From: Sphaerobacter thermophilus DSM 20745
Lineage (GTDB): Bacteria > Chloroflexota > Chloroflexia > Thermomicrobiales > Thermomicrobiaceae
Direction of reading: 5' to 3'
NCBI RefSeq assembly: GCF_000024985.1
Contig: NC_013523.1
Span: forward strand, 186,001 to 250,000
Length of the DNA: 64,000 bases
The notes under the pieces were generated by a model that searched no databases, was not told where the DNA came from, and worked only from the letters and a program-made list of their open reading frames with translations. Positions within the stretch are counted from its first letter, which is position 1; the number at the start of each line of letters is the position of its first letter. The translations under genes were made by a program, and so were the position numbers. Below, in pieces: positions 52,149 through 60,552 of the stretch.

Positions 52149-52946
52149 TCAGGGCGTTGCCGTCGTCGTCTCGCCGGGTGAGCGGCGGTCACGTGCTCGT
52201 TCGACGGCTGCGGCGATGCGGCGCAGGATGCTGGCGATGCGTTCCACCTGCTGCGTGCCGCCACCGGGGCCGGTGGGCTGGCCCTCGGTGGTGGTGATAT
52301 TGCCCGTCTCGATGAGCTGCTTAGCACGGCGCAGGTCTTCCTGCACCTGCTGGGCAGGCGGAGGTCCGCTGAGGAGCCCGAACGTGCCGGCCGACAGCGT
52401 CGCCAGGGTGAGGTGGACTTCCGTGCCGTTTCCCCCTGGCGCGTCGTGGAAGCGCACGGTGCCGCGGGACCAGACGGGTGCGCCTTCGACCGACTGCCAG
52501 GCGATGACCTCGCCCGGCCGATCCTCGGTCACCTCCACGTCCCAGGCGCGCTGGCTCCCGCGTGGCCCGCGCGCGACCCAGCGGCTCGTCCGCTCCCCGG
52601 TCACCTCCACCGACTCGAGGTCGTGCATGAAGCGGGGGAGGTTGGTGAAGTCGCGCCAGAAGGCGTAGACCTCCTGCCGTGGTCGCGCGATGGTGACCGA
52701 CCGCGTGACGGTGAGCGGGGTTGGGCCACGCCCGAACCGGAGCCGGGTCACGAGCCCGCTCTGGTCGGCGACCCGGTAGGCGACGGCCGCGGCCGCCCCG
52801 GTCGCCAGGAGTCGCCGCAGCGTGCGCCGCCGCAGGATTCCGAGTGCGAGCACCCCGACGATGACCGGCGGCAGCCACGATGGGACGCCCATCTCGGACC
52901 CGGGTGTCTGGCGCCCATTGCCTGCCGGCTGTTGCTGTTCGGTCAT
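52149..52946 (-). CDS. SRPBCC-domain membrane protein
   Basis: A 265-residue protein. One or two short hydrophobic stretches (about 22-55: [18 protein letters not shown] and [15 protein letters not shown]) precede an SRPBCC/START-like domain at about 75-215: [40 protein letters not shown] and [11 protein letters not shown]. This fold binds hydrophobic ligands. The C-terminal part is Arg/Gly-rich. The ATG at 52946 has GGGAGGGAG upstream. Some related proteins are annotated as cyclase/dehydrase; the ligand is unknown. It is divergent from the LysW operon leader. Confidence 0.82.
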
Positions 52947-53057: not shown

Positions 53058-53086
53058 TTCCCTTTTTCCGCAAGAGGTGGTAGGAT
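53058..53086 (+). promoter_or_regulatory. candidate promoter of the lysW leader
   Basis: TTCCCT (53058-53063) and TAGGAT (53081-53086) are spaced by 17 bases. The -10 is good (four of six) and the -35 is weak. Transcription would start near 53093, about 385 nt before lysW. Confidence 0.4.
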
Positions 53087-53092
53087 GTCTCC

Positions 53093-53350
53093 CGCTGACG
53101 TCTGTTCGTGGGAGACAGGCACGGTGGAGAGCGTTTGGGCCCGACAGAAGAAAGCGATCGCGGCGGACTGCGTGGCAGTGCGCCGGTTCGGCGCTTCCGT
53201 CGTTTTTGGCCCTGCCGGCATCCCCGCCCCTAGGTGCTGCCATGCTCCCGCGTGTCTCGGCGTCGGCGGAGGGTGCCAATAAGTCAGGCACACAATCCGG
53301 TGAAGCGCCAGCGGCGGTGAGCGGCAACGGTCACCGCCGTTTTTGTTGTT
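53093..53350 (+). promoter_or_regulatory. lysW-operon leader with intrinsic terminator (candidate attenuator)
   Basis: A GTCTCCC/GGGAGAC stem (about 53087-53121) opens the leader, a GCGCCG/CGGCGC stem lies near 53180-53195, and at 53312-53339 a 9-bp stem with a 10-base loop (CGGCGGTGA...TCACCGCCG) is followed by TTTTTGTTGTT (53340-53350). No plus-strand gene precedes it, so the terminator can only act on the lysW leader RNA. No known riboswitch class was recognised and no convincing leader peptide rich in Lys or Arg was seen. Confidence 0.6.
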
Positions 53351-53478: not shown

Positions 53479-53640
53479 ATGGGTGAGTGCCCGGAATGCG
53501 GTGCCGGATTGGGGCTGGAGAACGTGGAGCAGGGCGAGATCGTGCAGTGCCCTGACTGCGGCGTCGAGCTGGAGGTGCTGGAGACCTCGCCGCTGACGCT
53601 GGGGCTGGCTCCGGCCGAAGAAGAAGACTGGGGAGAGTAG
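53479..53640 (+). CDS. lysW: amino-acid carrier protein LysW
   Basis: A 53-residue acidic carrier protein. The C-terminal glutamate of the EDWGE motif is linked to the amino group of aminoadipate (or glutamate), protecting it through the pathway. The N-terminal zinc finger is complete: CPECGAG and CPDCGVE (Cys-x2-Cys twice). The C-terminus is EEEDWGE, exactly as in known LysW proteins. The ATG has GGGAGGA eight bases upstream. It is the first gene of an operon with its LysX, LysK, LysY, LysZ and LysJ partners, six bases before the next gene. Confidence 0.96.
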   Translation: MGECPECGAGLGLENVEQGEIVQCPDCGVELEVLETSPLTLGLAPAEEEDWGE

Positions 53641-53646
53641 CCGGTC

Positions 53647-54471
53647 GTGGCGCGGGTTGCCCTGCTTGCCGACCGGCTACGTGTTGAGGAACGCCTGCTG
53701 ATCGAGGCGTTCGCGGCCCGGGGGCACGAGGCGGTGCTGGTGCAGCCCGCCAAGTTGGCCCTGTCTCCCGCTGCGCCGAGCGCGGGCGACTTTGTCGCGG
53801 CGCTCGACCGCGGCGAAGCCACGGCCGAACGGGCGGTGCTGGCGGCGCTGCTGGCGTCCGGCGGCACCCCGGTGGTGAACCGGGCAGCCACCGCCCGGCT
53901 CCTGGCCGACCGCATGGCGCTGCTGCGCCACCTGATCCTGGCGGACATCCCGGTGCCGGAGACTCGCGTCTGCTTCGGCGAGGAGGCGATCTTCGCCGCT
54001 ATCGCGGAGATCGGCTATCCGGTCGTTCTCAAGTCGCTGACGGTGGATCCCGGTTTCCCGGTGGCGCTGGTCGAGGACCAGGATGCGGCCGAGGCGATCG
54101 TCGAGCACCGGATCATGCTCGGCGGCGAGCGCGCGGTGCTGGTGCAGCAGTTCATCCCGGCCCGGGCCGGGCAGTCGGTCCGGCTGGTCGTCGCCGGTCG
54201 GTCGCTCGCGGGGATCGAGCAGCGGACCCACGGCGGCTGGCGGCCCGGTCGTGACGCGACGTATGAGGCGTACACCGGGGATCCGGCCCCGCTGACGGCC
54301 CTGGCCGAACGGATCATCGAGCGGCTCGGCACCGGCACCTACGCGGTGGAGGTCGTCGAGACCGGCGACGGGCCGGTGGTGGTTGGCGTGGCCAACCTGG
54401 TCGATTTCCGCTCGCTGAGCGGGCGGGGCGTCGACGTGGCAGGAATGATCGCTGATTTCGTGTTGGGATAG
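53647..54471 (+). CDS. divergent LysX-like ATP-grasp protein, probably catalytically altered
   Basis: A 274-residue paralog of LysX, the ligase that couples LysW to its amino acid. The overall fold is retained: N-terminal RVALLADRLRVEERLLIEAF, the ADRMALLRHLILADIPVPET segment, and YPVVLK with Lys129. But the phosphate-loop segment PVIGSWGRLLAKV of true LysX is replaced by SLTVDPGFPVALV, and the metal-binding EVN is VAN (248-250), followed by DFRS instead of EFKN. Only the intact copy at 55650 keeps these. It may be a regulator, scaffold or enzyme with changed function. GTG start. Confidence 0.75.
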   Translation: MARVALLADRLRVEERLLIEAFAARGHEAVLVQPAKLALSPAAPSAGDFVAALDRGEATAERAVLAALLASGGTPVVNRAATARLLADRMALLRHLILADIPVPETRVCFGEEAIFAAIAEIGYPVVLKSLTVDPGFPVALVEDQDAAEAIVEHRIMLGGERAVLVQQFIPARAGQSVRLVVAGRSLAGIEQRTHGGWRPGRDATYEAYTGDPAPLTALAERIIERLGTGTYAVEVVETGDGPVVVGVANLVDFRSLSGRGVDVAGMIADFVLG

Positions 54472-54504
54472 GCCCTCACCCCCATCCCCTCTTCTACGTG
54501 TTAG

Positions 54505-56546
<2,042 letters not shown>

Positions 56547-56552
56547 GAGTGT

Positions 56553-56647
56553 TGCGTCATGCGTCATGCGTCCCCCTCACCCCCCGGCCCCTCTCCCACC
56601 AGGGGAGAGGGGCCGGGGGGTGAGGGGGACGCATGACGCATGACGCA
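56553..56647. repeat. heptanucleotide-repeat element (D), perfect 45-bp inverted repeat
   Basis: Arms 56553-56597 and 56603-56647 are complementary at all 45 positions with a loop of 5 bases (ACCAG). Outer parts are TGCGTCA heptamers; the inner part is CCCCCTCACCCCCCGGCCCCTCTCCC (in two blocks: CCCCCTCACCCCCC and GGCCCCTCTCCC). It lies between lysX/argX and argC/lysY in the same operon. Confidence 0.88.
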
Positions 56648-56666
56648 TGACCCAGAAAGGACACCC

Positions 56667-57716
56667 ATGACTCTCTCAGTCGCCATCCTTGGTGGGTCGG
56701 GTTACGCCGGTGGGGAGCTGCTCCGGCTGCTGCTGGGGCACCCGGAGGTGGAGGTGACGCAGGTCACCTCGCGCTCCCGGGCCGGGAAGTTCGTCCACAC
56801 CGTGCACCCGAACCTGCGCAAGCGGACGCAACTGAAGTTCATCCCGCCGGAGAAGCTGGAGCGGGTCGACGTCCTCTTCTCCGCGCTGCCGCACGGGGCG
56901 ACCGCACCCCAGGTGAAGGACCTGCTGGAGCGCGGCTCGATCGTAGTTGACCTGAGCGCCGACTTCCGGTTGCGCGATCCAGCCGCCTACGAGCGCTGGT
57001 ACGGCTGGAGCCACCCGTTCCCGGAGATGATCCCTGACACGGTCTACGGCATGCCGGAGCTGCACCGGGAGGAGATCCGCACCGCCCGCTACATCGCCGG
57101 GCCGGGCTGCACCGCGACGGCGGCCATCCTGGGGCTGGCGCCGCTGTTCCGGGCCGGGGTGGTCGATCCGTCCATGCCGGTCGTGATCGAAGCCAAGACC
57201 GGGTCCTCCGGCGCGGGGGCCGAGGTGACCCTCTCCAGCCACCACCCGGAGCGCGCCGGGATCATCCGCTCCTTCAAGCCGACCGGGCACCGGCACAGCG
57301 CCGAGATCCTTCAGGAGCTGGCCGTCGACGGAGTGGCGCCGAACGTACACTTCACCGTGACCAGTGTCGAGGCGGTGCGCGGCATCCTGGCGACCTCCCA
57401 CGTCTTCCTCAAGGAGCCGCTGGCGGACAAGGATCTGTGGAAGATCTACCGGGGCATGTACGGCCAGGAGCCGTTCATCCGCCTGGTGAAGGAAGCGAGC
57501 GGCATCCACCGCTACCCGGAGCCGAAGATCCTCTCCGGCACGAACTACTGCGACATCGGCTGGGAGCTGGATGCGGACGGCAAGCGGCTGGTCGTCATGG
57601 CTGCGATCGACAACCTGATGAAGGGCGCGGCCGGGCAGGCGGTGCAGGCGATGAACATCCGCTGCGGCTTCGACGAGACGGCCGGGCTGGAGTTCCCGGG
57701 GTTGCATCCGATCTAG
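56667..57716 (+). CDS. argC: LysW-aminoadipyl/glutamyl phosphate reductase (LysY/ArgC)
   Basis: Reduces the LysW-bound acyl phosphate to the semialdehyde with NADPH. 349 residues. The N-terminal cofactor motif is AILGGSGYAGGELLRLL; the catalytic Cys is in AGPGCTATAAILG; the later catalytic His lies in SFKPTGHRHSAEI. The chain ends with the DNLMKGAAGQAVQAMNI helix typical of ArgC/LysY. The ATG at 56667 has AGAAAGGA upstream. ArgC and LysY cannot be told apart reliably from sequence alone. Confidence 0.92.
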   Translation: MTLSVAILGGSGYAGGELLRLLLGHPEVEVTQVTSRSRAGKFVHTVHPNLRKRTQLKFIPPEKLERVDVLFSALPHGATAPQVKDLLERGSIVVDLSADFRLRDPAAYERWYGWSHPFPEMIPDTVYGMPELHREEIRTARYIAGPGCTATAAILGLAPLFRAGVVDPSMPVVIEAKTGSSGAGAEVTLSSHHPERAGIIRSFKPTGHRHSAEILQELAVDGVAPNVHFTVTSVEAVRGILATSHVFLKEPLADKDLWKIYRGMYGQEPFIRLVKEASGIHRYPEPKILSGTNYCDIGWELDADGKRLVVMAAIDNLMKGAAGQAVQAMNIRCGFDETAGLEFPGLHPI

Positions 57717-57720
57717 GATG

Positions 57721-57797
57721 CGTGTCGCGTACTGCGTATTGCGTATTCGGCGCCCCTTCCCTCTCCCCTGGTGGGAGAGGGGAAGGGGTGAGGGGGA
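57721..57797. repeat. heptanucleotide-repeat element (E), shortened
   Basis: CGTGTCGCGTACTGCGTATTGCGTATT units lead into a CCCCTTCCCTCTCCC/GGGAGAGGGGAAGGGG hairpin (57753-57767 with 57773-57788, one bulge). The right-hand heptamers are missing. It lies between argC/lysY and the methyltransferase gene. Confidence 0.6.
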
Positions 57798-57806
57798 AGA
57801 CCCCAG

Positions 57807-58433
57807 ATGCGACGTTTCCTCACCATTATCGGTGCGATCGGGGCGGTGGCAGCCGCGGTGGTCTGGTGGCGGCGGCAGCGGGAGGCGCCCGCGCCATTCT
57901 CGGCACGGCTGTCGTGGGTGCTCAGCCTGCCGCAGTTTGAGCACGCGCGGGCCGATGTCATCCTCGACCGGCTTGACCTGCGACCGGGAATGCGCGTGCT
58001 CGACGCCGGTGCCGGCACGGGCCGCCTGACGATCCCGGCGGCGCGGCGGGTCGCACCCAACGGCGAGGTCGTGGCGCTCGACATCCAGCCCGAGATGCTC
58101 GCTAAGCTGGAGCAGCGGGCGGCCGCCGAGGGGGTGACCAACATCCGCACCGTGCAGGCCGCGCTGGGGGACGGCGCGCTGGAGCCGGAGAGCTTCGACC
58201 GGGCGCTCCTGGTCGCCGTGCTCGGCGAGACACCGGATCAACTCGCGGTGCTGCGCGACCTGCACGCCGCGCTGAAGCCCGGTGGCATCCTCTCGGTGAG
58301 CGAGGGCTTCCCCGATCCGCACTACCAGCGTGCCGATCACGTGCGGGCGTTGGCGGCGGTCGCCGGGTTCCGGCCCTGGCAGGAGTGGCGCACCCGGCTC
58401 GGCTACACGCTGCATCTGGTGAAGGAGGGGTGA
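57807..58433 (+). CDS. class I SAM-dependent methyltransferase with N-terminal helix
   Basis: A 208-residue Rossmann-fold methyltransferase. Residues about 1-22 are hydrophobic (FLTIIGAIGAVAAAVVWW), a likely membrane anchor. Motif I is RVLDAGAGTGRLTIPAAR, motif II is VVALDIQPEMLAKL, and later parts GDGALEPESFDRALLVAVLGE and LKPGGILSVSE are typical. The substrate is unknown. Its place between argC/lysY and lysZ is unusual and it is on the same strand, so it is probably cotranscribed. A link to the carrier-protein pathway is only inference. Confidence 0.82.
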   Translation: MRRFLTIIGAIGAVAAAVVWWRRQREAPAPFSARLSWVLSLPQFEHARADVILDRLDLRPGMRVLDAGAGTGRLTIPAARRVAPNGEVVALDIQPEMLAKLEQRAAAEGVTNIRTVQAALGDGALEPESFDRALLVAVLGETPDQLAVLRDLHAALKPGGILSVSEGFPDPHYQRADHVRALAAVAGFRPWQEWRTRLGYTLHLVKEG

Positions 58434-58540
58434 TGCGTCATACGTCATGCGTGATGCGTCCCCCTCACCCCCGGCCCTCTCCTACCAGGGAGAGGGGAGC
58501 ATGACGCATAACGCGTGACGCATGACGTACGACAACGGAG
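58434..58540. repeat. heptanucleotide-repeat element (F)
   Basis: ATGCGTC-ATACGTC-ATGCGTG-ATGCGTC units, then CCCCTCACCCCCGGCCCTCTCC, ACCAGGGAGAGGGG, then ATGACGC-ATAACGC-GTGACGC-ATGACGT. The arms are imperfect inverses with a 7-base period. It lies directly before lysZ. Confidence 0.7.
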
Positions 58541-58546
58541 GGACCG

Positions 58547-59383
58547 ATGCTGATCGTCAAGCTGGGTGGGAGCGCGGGGATCGATCCCGGGCCGACGCTC
58601 GACGACCTGGCGGAACTTTCGAAGACCGAGCGAGTCGTGTTCGTCCACGGCGCGAACGCAACGATGGACGAGTGGACACGCGCCATGGGGCGTGAGCCGC
58701 GCCTCGTCTACTCCAAGACCGGGCAGGTCAGCCGTTTCACCGATGCCGAGACGATGGACCTGATGCTGGCGGTCTATGCCGGACTGGTCAACAAGCGGTT
58801 GGTGGAGGGGTTGCAGGCGCGCGGCGTCAACGCGGTCGGCCTGAGCGCGCTCGACGGGGGCATCGCCCGCGGCCCGCGCAAGGACACCCTGCGTGCCATC
58901 GAGGACGGCAAGCCGAAAGTGCTGCGCGGAGACTACGCCGGCAGCATCACCCGGATCGACACCCGGCTGATCGACCTGCTGCTCGACAACGGCTACCTCC
59001 CGGTGCTGACGCCGCCTGCGCTGTCCGATGCCGGGGAGGCGATCAACGTCGACGGAGACAAGCTGACCCTGCGGCTGGGCCTCGCGCTCGGTGCCGACGC
59101 ACTGGTGATCCTCTCCAACACCGCCGGGCTGCTTCGCGACCTCAACGACCCGGACTCGCTGGTGCGGCAGATAGACGTGAGCGATCCGGCCAGCGTCGAG
59201 GCCGCCATGGAAGCGGCCGGGGGGCGCATGAAGAAGAAGGTGCAGGCGGGTGTGGACGCCGTTGCCGCCGGGATCGGACGGGTCATCTTCGCCGACGCGC
59301 GGGTTCCGCAGCCGGTGCGGCGCGCCCTGGCGGGCGAGGGGACCGTCGTGATGGCGAGCGCGCCGATTGGAGCCGAGGCATGA
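58547..59383 (+). CDS. lysZ: LysW-aminoadipate/glutamate kinase LysZ (ArgB-like)
   Basis: Phosphorylates the side-chain carboxyl of the LysW-bound amino acid. 278 residues of the amino-acid-kinase fold. It starts MLIVKLGGSAGIDPGPT and follows Thermus LysZ closely by memory: QVSRFTDAETMDLMLAVYAGLVNKRLVE (blocks QVSRFTDAETM and YAGLVNKRLVE), KVLRGDYAGSI, GYLPVLTPPALSDAGEAINVDGD (blocks GYLPVLTPPAL and EAINVDGD), and GRMKKKVQA near the end. The ATG has CGGAGGGA upstream. It overlaps lysJ by four bases. Confidence 0.93.
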   Translation: MLIVKLGGSAGIDPGPTLDDLAELSKTERVVFVHGANATMDEWTRAMGREPRLVYSKTGQVSRFTDAETMDLMLAVYAGLVNKRLVEGLQARGVNAVGLSALDGGIARGPRKDTLRAIEDGKPKVLRGDYAGSITRIDTRLIDLLLDNGYLPVLTPPALSDAGEAINVDGDKLTLRLGLALGADALVILSNTAGLLRDLNDPDSLVRQIDVSDPASVEAAMEAAGGRMKKKVQAGVDAVAAGIGRVIFADARVPQPVRRALAGEGTVVMASAPIGAEA

Positions 59384-60552
59384 GTCAGGCGCTGAACATC
59401 GACATCGTCCGAAAAGACAAGGACCTCCAGCCGCCGCTGTACGCGAAGCGCGACATTGCGCTGGTGCGCGGCGAGGGGGTCTACCTCTGGGATGCCGACG
59501 GCACTCGGTACCTCGATCTGGTGAGCAACTACGGCGTCAACATCCTCGGCCATGCCCACCCGAAGGTCACCGAGGCGATCCAGCGGCAGGCCGCCACACT
59601 GGTCAGTTGCCACCAGTCGTTCTCCAATGACGTGCGCTCCGCGTTCCTCCAGAAGTTGCTCAGCATCGCCCCGGCCGGGCTGACCCACGCCTTCCTCTCC
59701 AACTCCGGCACCGAGGCGATCGAGGCGGCGCTGAAGTTCGCCTATGTCGCCACCGGCCGCACCAAGGTGGTTGCCGCCAAGCGTGGTTACCACGGTCGGA
59801 CCCTCGGCGCGCTGGCGGCCACGGCCGACAAGAAGTACCGCGATCCCTTCGCCGGGGCGCTCGCCGAAGCGACTCACGTCACCTACGGCGACGCCGAGGC
59901 GCTGGCTGAGGCGGTTGACGAGACCACGGCCGCCGTGGTGCTGGAGCCGATCCAGGGTGAGGGCGGCATCCACCCGGCGCCGCCTGGTTATCTGGCCCGC
60001 GCCCGGGAGATCGCCCACGCGGCCGGCGCGCTTGTGATCTTCGACGAGATCCAGACCGGCTTCCGCACCGGCACCTGGTTCGCCTGCCAGCACGCTGGAG
60101 TGACGCCCGACCTGATGGCCCTCTCCAAGGGGCTCGCCAACGGCGTGCCGATCGGGGCCACGCTGATGACGGCTGAGGTTGCCGGGGCGCTGGAAGGCGG
60201 GGTGCACGGCACCACCTTCGGCGGTAACCCGCTGGCCGCCGCCGCGGGGCTGGCGACGCTCGAGGCGCTGGAGTCCGAGGGCTGGCTGGCGCACAGCGCC
60301 GAGGTCGGGGCCTACTTCATCGAGCAACTCCGGGCCCTGGCGCACCCCAAGGTCCGCGAGGTGCGCGGCCAGGGGTTGATGATCGGCGTGGAGCTGAAGG
60401 GCCGGGCGACGCCGGTCGTGCGCGCCATGCAGGAGCGCGGCGTGCTGGCCCTCATGGCCGGGAGCCTCACCGTTCGCTTCCTCCCGCCGCTGCTCCTGAC
60501 CCGCGAGCAGGTGGACACGGCGGTAGCGGTGTTCGCCGAGGCGCTGGGGTAG
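59380..60552 (+). CDS. lysJ: LysW-aminoadipate semialdehyde/glutamate semialdehyde transaminase LysJ (ArgD-like)
   Basis: A PLP-dependent class-III transaminase that turns the LysW-bound semialdehyde into the amino form. 390 residues. The PLP-binding Lys is in [31 protein letters not shown] carries the Asp that binds the PLP nitrogen, [15 protein letters not shown] and [13 protein letters not shown] bind the phosphate, and [11 protein letters not shown] is the usual strand. It follows lysZ with a 4-base overlap (ATGA) and is the last gene of the operon, before an intrinsic terminator. Confidence 0.93.

Follow-up and report, generated by a model that had tools for sequence, protein, structure and literature searches.

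The lysW operon of Sphaerobacter thermophilus DSM 20745 is preceded by a leader that holds a conserved open reading frame (ORF) with a single invariant arginine codon, AGG, and ends in an intrinsic terminator. We propose, with a probability of roughly 60 per cent, that this leader is a ribosome-mediated transcription attenuator, in which a shortage of arginine would stall the ribosome at AGG and turn the operon on. That it is a leader-peptide attenuator of the lysW operon, whatever the direction of the switch, we consider quite probable; arginine shortage is the mildly favored candidate for the inducing signal. The window (the whole stretch of DNA analyzed, 64,000 nt) comes from a genome of two contigs and 3.99 Mb (G000), and the features below lie on its plus strand unless stated otherwise.

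The leader and its place before lysW

The first gene of the controlled operon is lysW itself (53479–53640; TIGR01206, 74.6 bits at a cut-off of 53.2). Family matches assign predicted functions to the rest of the operon (53647–60552) in the order LysX-like, LysK-type hydrolase, LysX, argC, methyltransferase-like, LysZ-type kinase, and LysJ/ArgD-type transaminase. Two LysX-type ligases are present in this one operon: relative to the LysX cut-off of 275.6 bits, the first (53647–54468) scores far below at 108.7 and the second (55650–56543) above at 297.9. Between the second lysX and argC lies a perfect inverted repeat (56553–56647 of the window; arms of 45 nt, loop of 5 nt), and related copies at 57759–57796 and 58434–58481 point to an intergenic repeat family inside the operon.

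The leader RNA is about 250 nt long and ends about 130 nt before lysW. A sequence-only reading had placed a stem and T-run on the plus strand at 53312–53350, and both are present, with a 5′ arm at 53312–53320, a 3′ arm at 53331–53339, and five T residues at 53340–53344. It had also noted that the nearest upstream gene is on the minus strand; this ORF does face away from the leader, with a likely ATG near 52946 (the start being our choice). Its conclusion that the terminator acts on a leader of the LysW operon agrees with our finding of the same element before lysW in all sixteen family leaders. The number of terminator-like sites does not exceed what shuffles give (4 vs 2.0 ± 1.9). The terminator is real and part of a conserved leader, beyond chance, because the 11-nt arm GCGGCGGUGAG is invariant in the sixteen leaders from the family (Thermomicrobiaceae) and none of 200 shuffled sequences folds as well as the leader (z = −4.5).

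At the other end, a sigma-70 type promoter is predicted at 53058–53086. Its −35 element, TTCCCT (53058–53063), is weak and was read by eye; after a 17-nt spacer comes an extended −10 element, TGGTAGGAT (53078–53086), with transcription expected to start near 53093. The extended −10 pattern TGnTAnnnT occurs once upstream of the leader ORF in 16/16 leaders. Given this conservation and a predicted promoter upstream of the leader, a transcription start downstream of 53350 is unlikely.

We examined twenty-one family genomes, and the leader stands before lysW in all sixteen that have lysW. The sequence-only reading had staked its proposal on such conservation among orthologs. All sixteen share an extended −10 promoter, an intrinsic terminator, and an ORF of 47–53 codons that encodes the motif PA..[PR]APR....PA. 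A covariance model of the leader core (R1) matches in 16/21 genomes, including every one that is at least 90 per cent complete and at most 5 per cent contaminated (14/14). The five genomes without the leader, which are 54–87 per cent complete, have no lysW match either.

Outside the family the leader was not seen. A DNA search of sixty-one relatives found it in the genus only (3/61); lysW is present in 43/61, and among the thirty loci listed all sixteen family loci carry the leader. Run over 400 Chloroflexota genomes, R1 gave strong full-length matches only in the family members sampled (10/10). The best outside matches inspected (L044, L045, L047, L048, L053) covered the terminator alone, were partial, or lay within genes, and no leader was seen at a partial R1 match in G001 (L161). 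Scanning 84,980 species genomes for the pattern gave ninety-one stretches. Among the eighty of these that were listed, thirteen have the ORF with LysW downstream and the other sixty-seven are without LysW; those LysW loci with informative names belong to this family, the close relatives named being Sphaerobacter, Thermomicrobium, Thermalbibacter, and Thermomicrobiaceae. In sixty other lysW upstream regions (L198 and L213 partial), twenty-two have a terminator-like site and no listed ORF has the motif. On these searches, the device is seen only in Thermomicrobiaceae.

Its own predicted promoter, its terminator end, and the gap of about 130 nt before lysW would also suit a small RNA, stable and about 250 nt long, that acts mainly elsewhere, or a passive terminator, and a CUCCUGC strand within it resembles the anti-Shine–Dalgarno sequence. 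However, the leader is always directly before lysW in the family (16/16, with the thirteen ORF-bearing LysW loci among the eighty listed of ninety-one pattern-scan stretches), and a small RNA would not need the covarying antiterminator described below. We regard this explanation as highly improbable.

The leader ORF and its AGG codon

Read from a GTG start, which was our choice, the leader ORF has 52 codons (peptide 53124–53279, stop codon TAA 53280–53282), and a probable Shine–Dalgarno sequence, GGGAG, lies upstream at 53110–53114. The frame is open from start to stop in 16/16 leaders; the other two frames are open in only 4/16 and 9/16. The stop codon holds the same position in all sixteen leaders, sixteen to eighteen codons after AGG, and the start is thirty to thirty-seven codons before AGG.

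The residues P A.. [PR] A P R.... P A are kept in every leader peptide (16/16). In the window, the first part of this motif (family form PA..[PR]APR) reads PAGIPAPR (53211–53234) and closes with the rare Arg codon AGG (53232–53234), the proposed sensing codon, which is AGG in 16/16 leaders. This codon accounts for 46 of the 1547 Arg codons (3 per cent) in fifty-one predicted genes of the window, and for 3–6 per cent in the other genera sampled except g3 (6/44). The motif's Pro codons are CCC or CCU in 63/63 cases (four motif positions across sixteen leaders, one position being Arg in L007); these two codons supply 402 of the 1171 Pro codons (34 per cent) in window genes. The distance from the first base of AGG to the antiterminator core, CUCCYGC, is 13 nt in 16/16 leaders.

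Over the whole leader ORF pN/pS is 0.90, and within the motif 0.39. Coding selection outside the motif is therefore not supported, and the N-terminal part looks like a stretch that merely needs to be read, free of protein-level constraint. The claim of the sequence-only reading that no Lys- or Arg-rich leader peptide is evident stands as far as composition goes, which is why the peptide was overlooked; a leader peptide exists all the same. It has only one conserved Arg codon, where classical attenuators usually have runs.

ArgJ was found in none of the twenty-one family genomes, and the same search was positive in 10/14 control genomes. Because ArgJ is absent, the LysW route in the source genome is most likely the arginine route, and perhaps that of lysine too; an Arg control codon fits a LysW route making arginine. 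Homocitrate synthase is above cut-off in 1/21 family genomes (G004). DapF is present in 10/21, including G000, where DapB_N was not found. Across G000–G012 the lysine genes are patchy, with DapF but no DapB_N in G000–G002, G005, G009, and G012, and DapB_N without DapF in others.

Alternative helices and the proposed switch

Four strands of the leader form three mutually exclusive helices (1:2, 2:3, and 3:4), which fit a four-strand attenuator. Strand 1 (53093–53116) is the 5′ end of the leader, including the ribosome-binding region of the leader ORF. Strand 2 (53243–53268) consists of the antiterminator core CUCCCGC (53245–53251) and a 3′ part that pairs with strand 1. Strand 3 (53311–53326), with its eleven invariant nucleotides, is the 5′ arm of the terminator and alternatively the antiterminator partner of strand 2. 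Strand 4 (53330–53344) comprises the 3′ arm and T-run of the terminator. Terminator and antiterminator exclude each other, since strand 3 is common to both.

The sequence-only reading had mentioned further stems and suggested a search for covarying stems with an antiterminator option. Two helices do covary. Unprompted, RNAalifold joined columns 26–40 of the sixteen-leader alignment (the 5′ end and ribosome-binding region) with columns 178–193 (in the ORF, after AGG). This 1:2 helix has a covariation score of 0.477, compared with 0.226 ± 0.025 in shuffled alignments (0/500 as high), and thirty-three of its cells have changes on both sides, spread over 8/13 pairs. Its cells are paired in 88.9 per cent of cases, against 39–52 per cent for slid versions, a control that favors the helix in that it was picked from the same alignment used to score it. 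When strands were swapped among ten chosen leaders, the native 1:2 duplexes gave −311.2 kcal/mol vs −256.6 ± 15.3 for permuted ones (1/5000). A short-duplex test had limited 1:2 to some genera, a result overturned by the alignment fold with a longer strand. For 2:3 the covariation score is 0.164 vs 0.097 ± 0.016 shuffled (0/500), 87.1 per cent of cells are paired, and native strands beat permuted ones among nine chosen leaders (1/2000). The terminator helix 3:4 alone shows no covariation in the sixteen leaders; 5/10 pairs never vary and none is changed on both sides, as expected if strand 3 has to serve two partners.

Folding models at 60 °C suggest how these helices could compete. In the complete RNA without ribosomes, 1:2 is predicted at 0.46–1.00 in 15/16 leaders (0.10 in L010) alongside 3:4 at 0.84–1.00, which would be the off state. 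Before strand 3 emerges, strand 2 is predicted to be paired with the 5′ untranslated region (UTR) at 0.46–1.00. When the RNA up to AGG+12 is removed, to mimic ribosome stalling in its extreme form, 2:3 reaches 0.90–0.93 in 16/16 leaders before strand 4 is made. In the stalled form before strand 3 is made, strand 2 pairs at up to 0.53 with a strand downstream of it; we discarded this strand as one that hides strand 2, its pairing being near zero once strand 3 is made. For full-length RNA at equilibrium with a modeled AGG stall, 3:4 is at least 0.72 in 15/16 leaders (0.36 in L020), and the antiterminator would therefore have to work kinetically, not by stability. With a modeled stall and the 5′ UTR left free, 1:2 beats 2:3 in 10/16 leaders; with the ribosome-binding site occupied, 2:3 wins in 9/16 and 1:2 in 7/16. 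Strand 1 would therefore need fuller occupation by loading or queued ribosomes than was modeled.

From these results we infer the following sequence of events. By default, 1:2 would mask the site where ribosomes bind to translate the leader ORF; strands 3 and 4 could then pair as the terminator, and the operon would be off. During leader synthesis, ribosomes would load at strand 1 and translate the ORF. Were charged tRNA-Arg for AGG scarce, a ribosome would wait with AGG in the A site and the poor donor Pro of PA..PAP in the P site. The front edge of a ribosome usually lies 15–16 nt from the first P-site base, so that it would fall at AGG+12 to +13, just before the strand 2 core, and loading or queuing ribosomes would occupy strand 1. 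Strand 2 would then pair with strand 3, and RNA polymerase would read through into lysW. With ample arginine the ribosome would reach the stop codon and leave, 1:2 would re-form no later than the emergence of strand 3, and 3:4 would terminate transcription. A point against this model is that, in contrast to trp, the antiterminator core would lie outside the RNA covered by a ribosome at the leader stop codon. More tentatively, PA..PAP-R(AGG) might be a combined sensor of a new type, in which the nascent chain favors a ribosome pause at one rare codon and a lone AGG, in place of a run of codons, signals how much arginine is available; these ribosomes would also control the helix that spans the leader ORF and sequesters its ribosome-binding site, and initiation and elongation would both be read by one terminator.

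The peptide could also work in the opposite direction. Here an abundant ligand (arginine or a LysW-bound product) would cause the PA..PAPR nascent chain to stall its ribosome; the ribosome, past AGG, would cover strand 2, prevent 2:3, and keep the operon off, and uninterrupted translation to the stop would free the strand 2 core for read-through. Such an arrest peptide would account for the conservation of residues within eight codons before the stall point but not of the N-terminal part. The geometry would suit it too: the strand 2 core starts 13 nt after AGG, so that reading one or two more codons would bring the ribosome over it, and a ribosome at the stop codon would leave it free. Against this, the Arg codon itself is invariant, not just the Arg, which a peptide effect would not require, and models with a ribosome at the stop gave a mixed 2:3 outcome across leaders (0.00–1.00). 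The motif matches no known arrest motif and is not RAPP, as far as the accessible part of PMC10951233 goes. We consider an arrest peptide unlikely, and prefer a stall at AGG under arginine shortage.

An RNA-only switch, that is, a riboswitch for arginine, lysine, or an intermediate with an ORF open by chance, would explain two covarying helices and the strong folding. As the sequence-only reading had stated, the leader matches no known riboswitch class: Rfam 15, searched over the whole window at gathering scores, gave no match at all, and the leader alone, searched up to E 10, gave just two weak matches far below gathering scores. No T-box sequence or Stem I was found by Rfam in the leader; the same kind of search did detect T-boxes in two other lysW leaders (L175 and L178). 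Apart from the strands of the helices, only the peptide motif and the terminator are conserved. Identity between genera is low (0.36–0.45) both in the body of the ORF and in the stretch that separates strand 2 from the terminator, and there is therefore no conserved binding core or aptamer. We rejected both riboswitch and T-box on the Rfam result and the lack of such a core. Conservation of the reading frame, of the place of its stop codon, of AGG, and of the CCY Pro codons also speaks against an RNA-only switch, which we judge very unlikely. The suggestion of an unknown lysine or arginine sensor thus survives in part, as a cis-acting leader of the LysW operon that is probably arginine-responsive; its riboswitch form gives way to a conserved ORF with AGG.

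Comparison with other leaders

Other Chloroflexota lysW genes have leaders of different kinds. L190 (G148:C9), from another family, has two tandem Lys-run leader ORFs (features at 257–340, 385–421, 460–573, and 596–629) with peptides KKAKK and KKKCKKAK. A terminator follows each of them, and the pair stands directly before lysW. The two are apparently tandem lysine attenuators, a design comparable to the present one that speaks for our reading of it; the distance from the last Lys codon to the antiterminator strand downstream is 14 nt in the first leader and 19 nt in its neighbor. L227 (G296:C186, 473–610) has a single Lys-run leader ORF (NKKKCKKQP) and a terminator before lysW. T-box leaders above the Rfam gathering score precede lysW in L175 (350–633) and L178 (382–645), with a specifier that we take to be AAG (Lys), read from the alignment. 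T-box-like terminators occur in L201, L209, L224, L225, and L226, with no match at gathering score. These leaders resemble ours in apparent transcription-level control of the same operon; they differ in having KKAKK or KKKCKK peptides or a T-box with an apparent Lys specifier, and no PAPR motif. Lys-codon leaders, T-boxes, and the present device would give Chloroflexota lysW operons at least three RNA-level designs.

In the literature searched, mostly outside subscription papers, we found none that joins LysW, attenuation, and a leader peptide, and no description of this leader. The accessible text of one comparative paper attributes RNA-level control of arginine genes to T-boxes (PMC1262725), and the relevant taxa do not occur in the accessible parts of PMC10987492 or PMC2965389. 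The lysine riboswitch of ‘lysW’ in PMC5584792 is irrelevant, that gene being a different one (an NhaC-type antiporter) according to the part available.

Several leader ORFs offer partial parallels, described here from the available portions of the papers. Salmonella speF has a leader ORF, ORF34, whose rare Arg codons AGG CGG sense arginine and whose stop position matters; it controls polyamine synthesis through Rho and RNase G, and codon identity is not essential (PMC6386406). It shares with our leader the use of rare Arg codons for arginine sensing, but lacks an intrinsic terminator and has two adjacent Arg codons instead of one. Salmonella mgtP and mgtL sense Pro-tRNA and control magnesium transport and virulence genes (PMC3641672). 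They too are Pro-rich short ORFs in leaders with alternative stems, though mgtP has adjacent Pro codons (PMC3641672). RAPP/RAGP arrest peptides, including CruR, likewise have a Pro/Ala/Arg motif near the stall site of a leader peptide (PMC9426467, PMC10951233). In our motif Arg comes at the end (PAPR), and PA..[PR]APR is kept in 16/16 leaders with no conserved RAPP or RGPP.

If the proposed reading is true, the LysW carrier-protein pathway would be under a leader-peptide attenuator that apparently responds to arginine. Classical attenuators (trp, his, leu, thr, phe) combine a leader ORF, strands pairing as 1:2, 2:3, and 3:4, a terminator, and a run of control codons. The present leader shares with them the leader ORF, the four strands with the same three pairings, and an intrinsic terminator before the first gene. 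It differs in having one conserved control codon rather than a run, a strand 1 formed by the 5′ UTR and ribosome-binding site rather than by the control-codon region, a stop codon beyond the antiterminator core, and the conserved PA..PAPR motif. This comparison raises a testable question: can one rare codon, set among conserved Pro and Ala residues, do the work of several control codons in a row?
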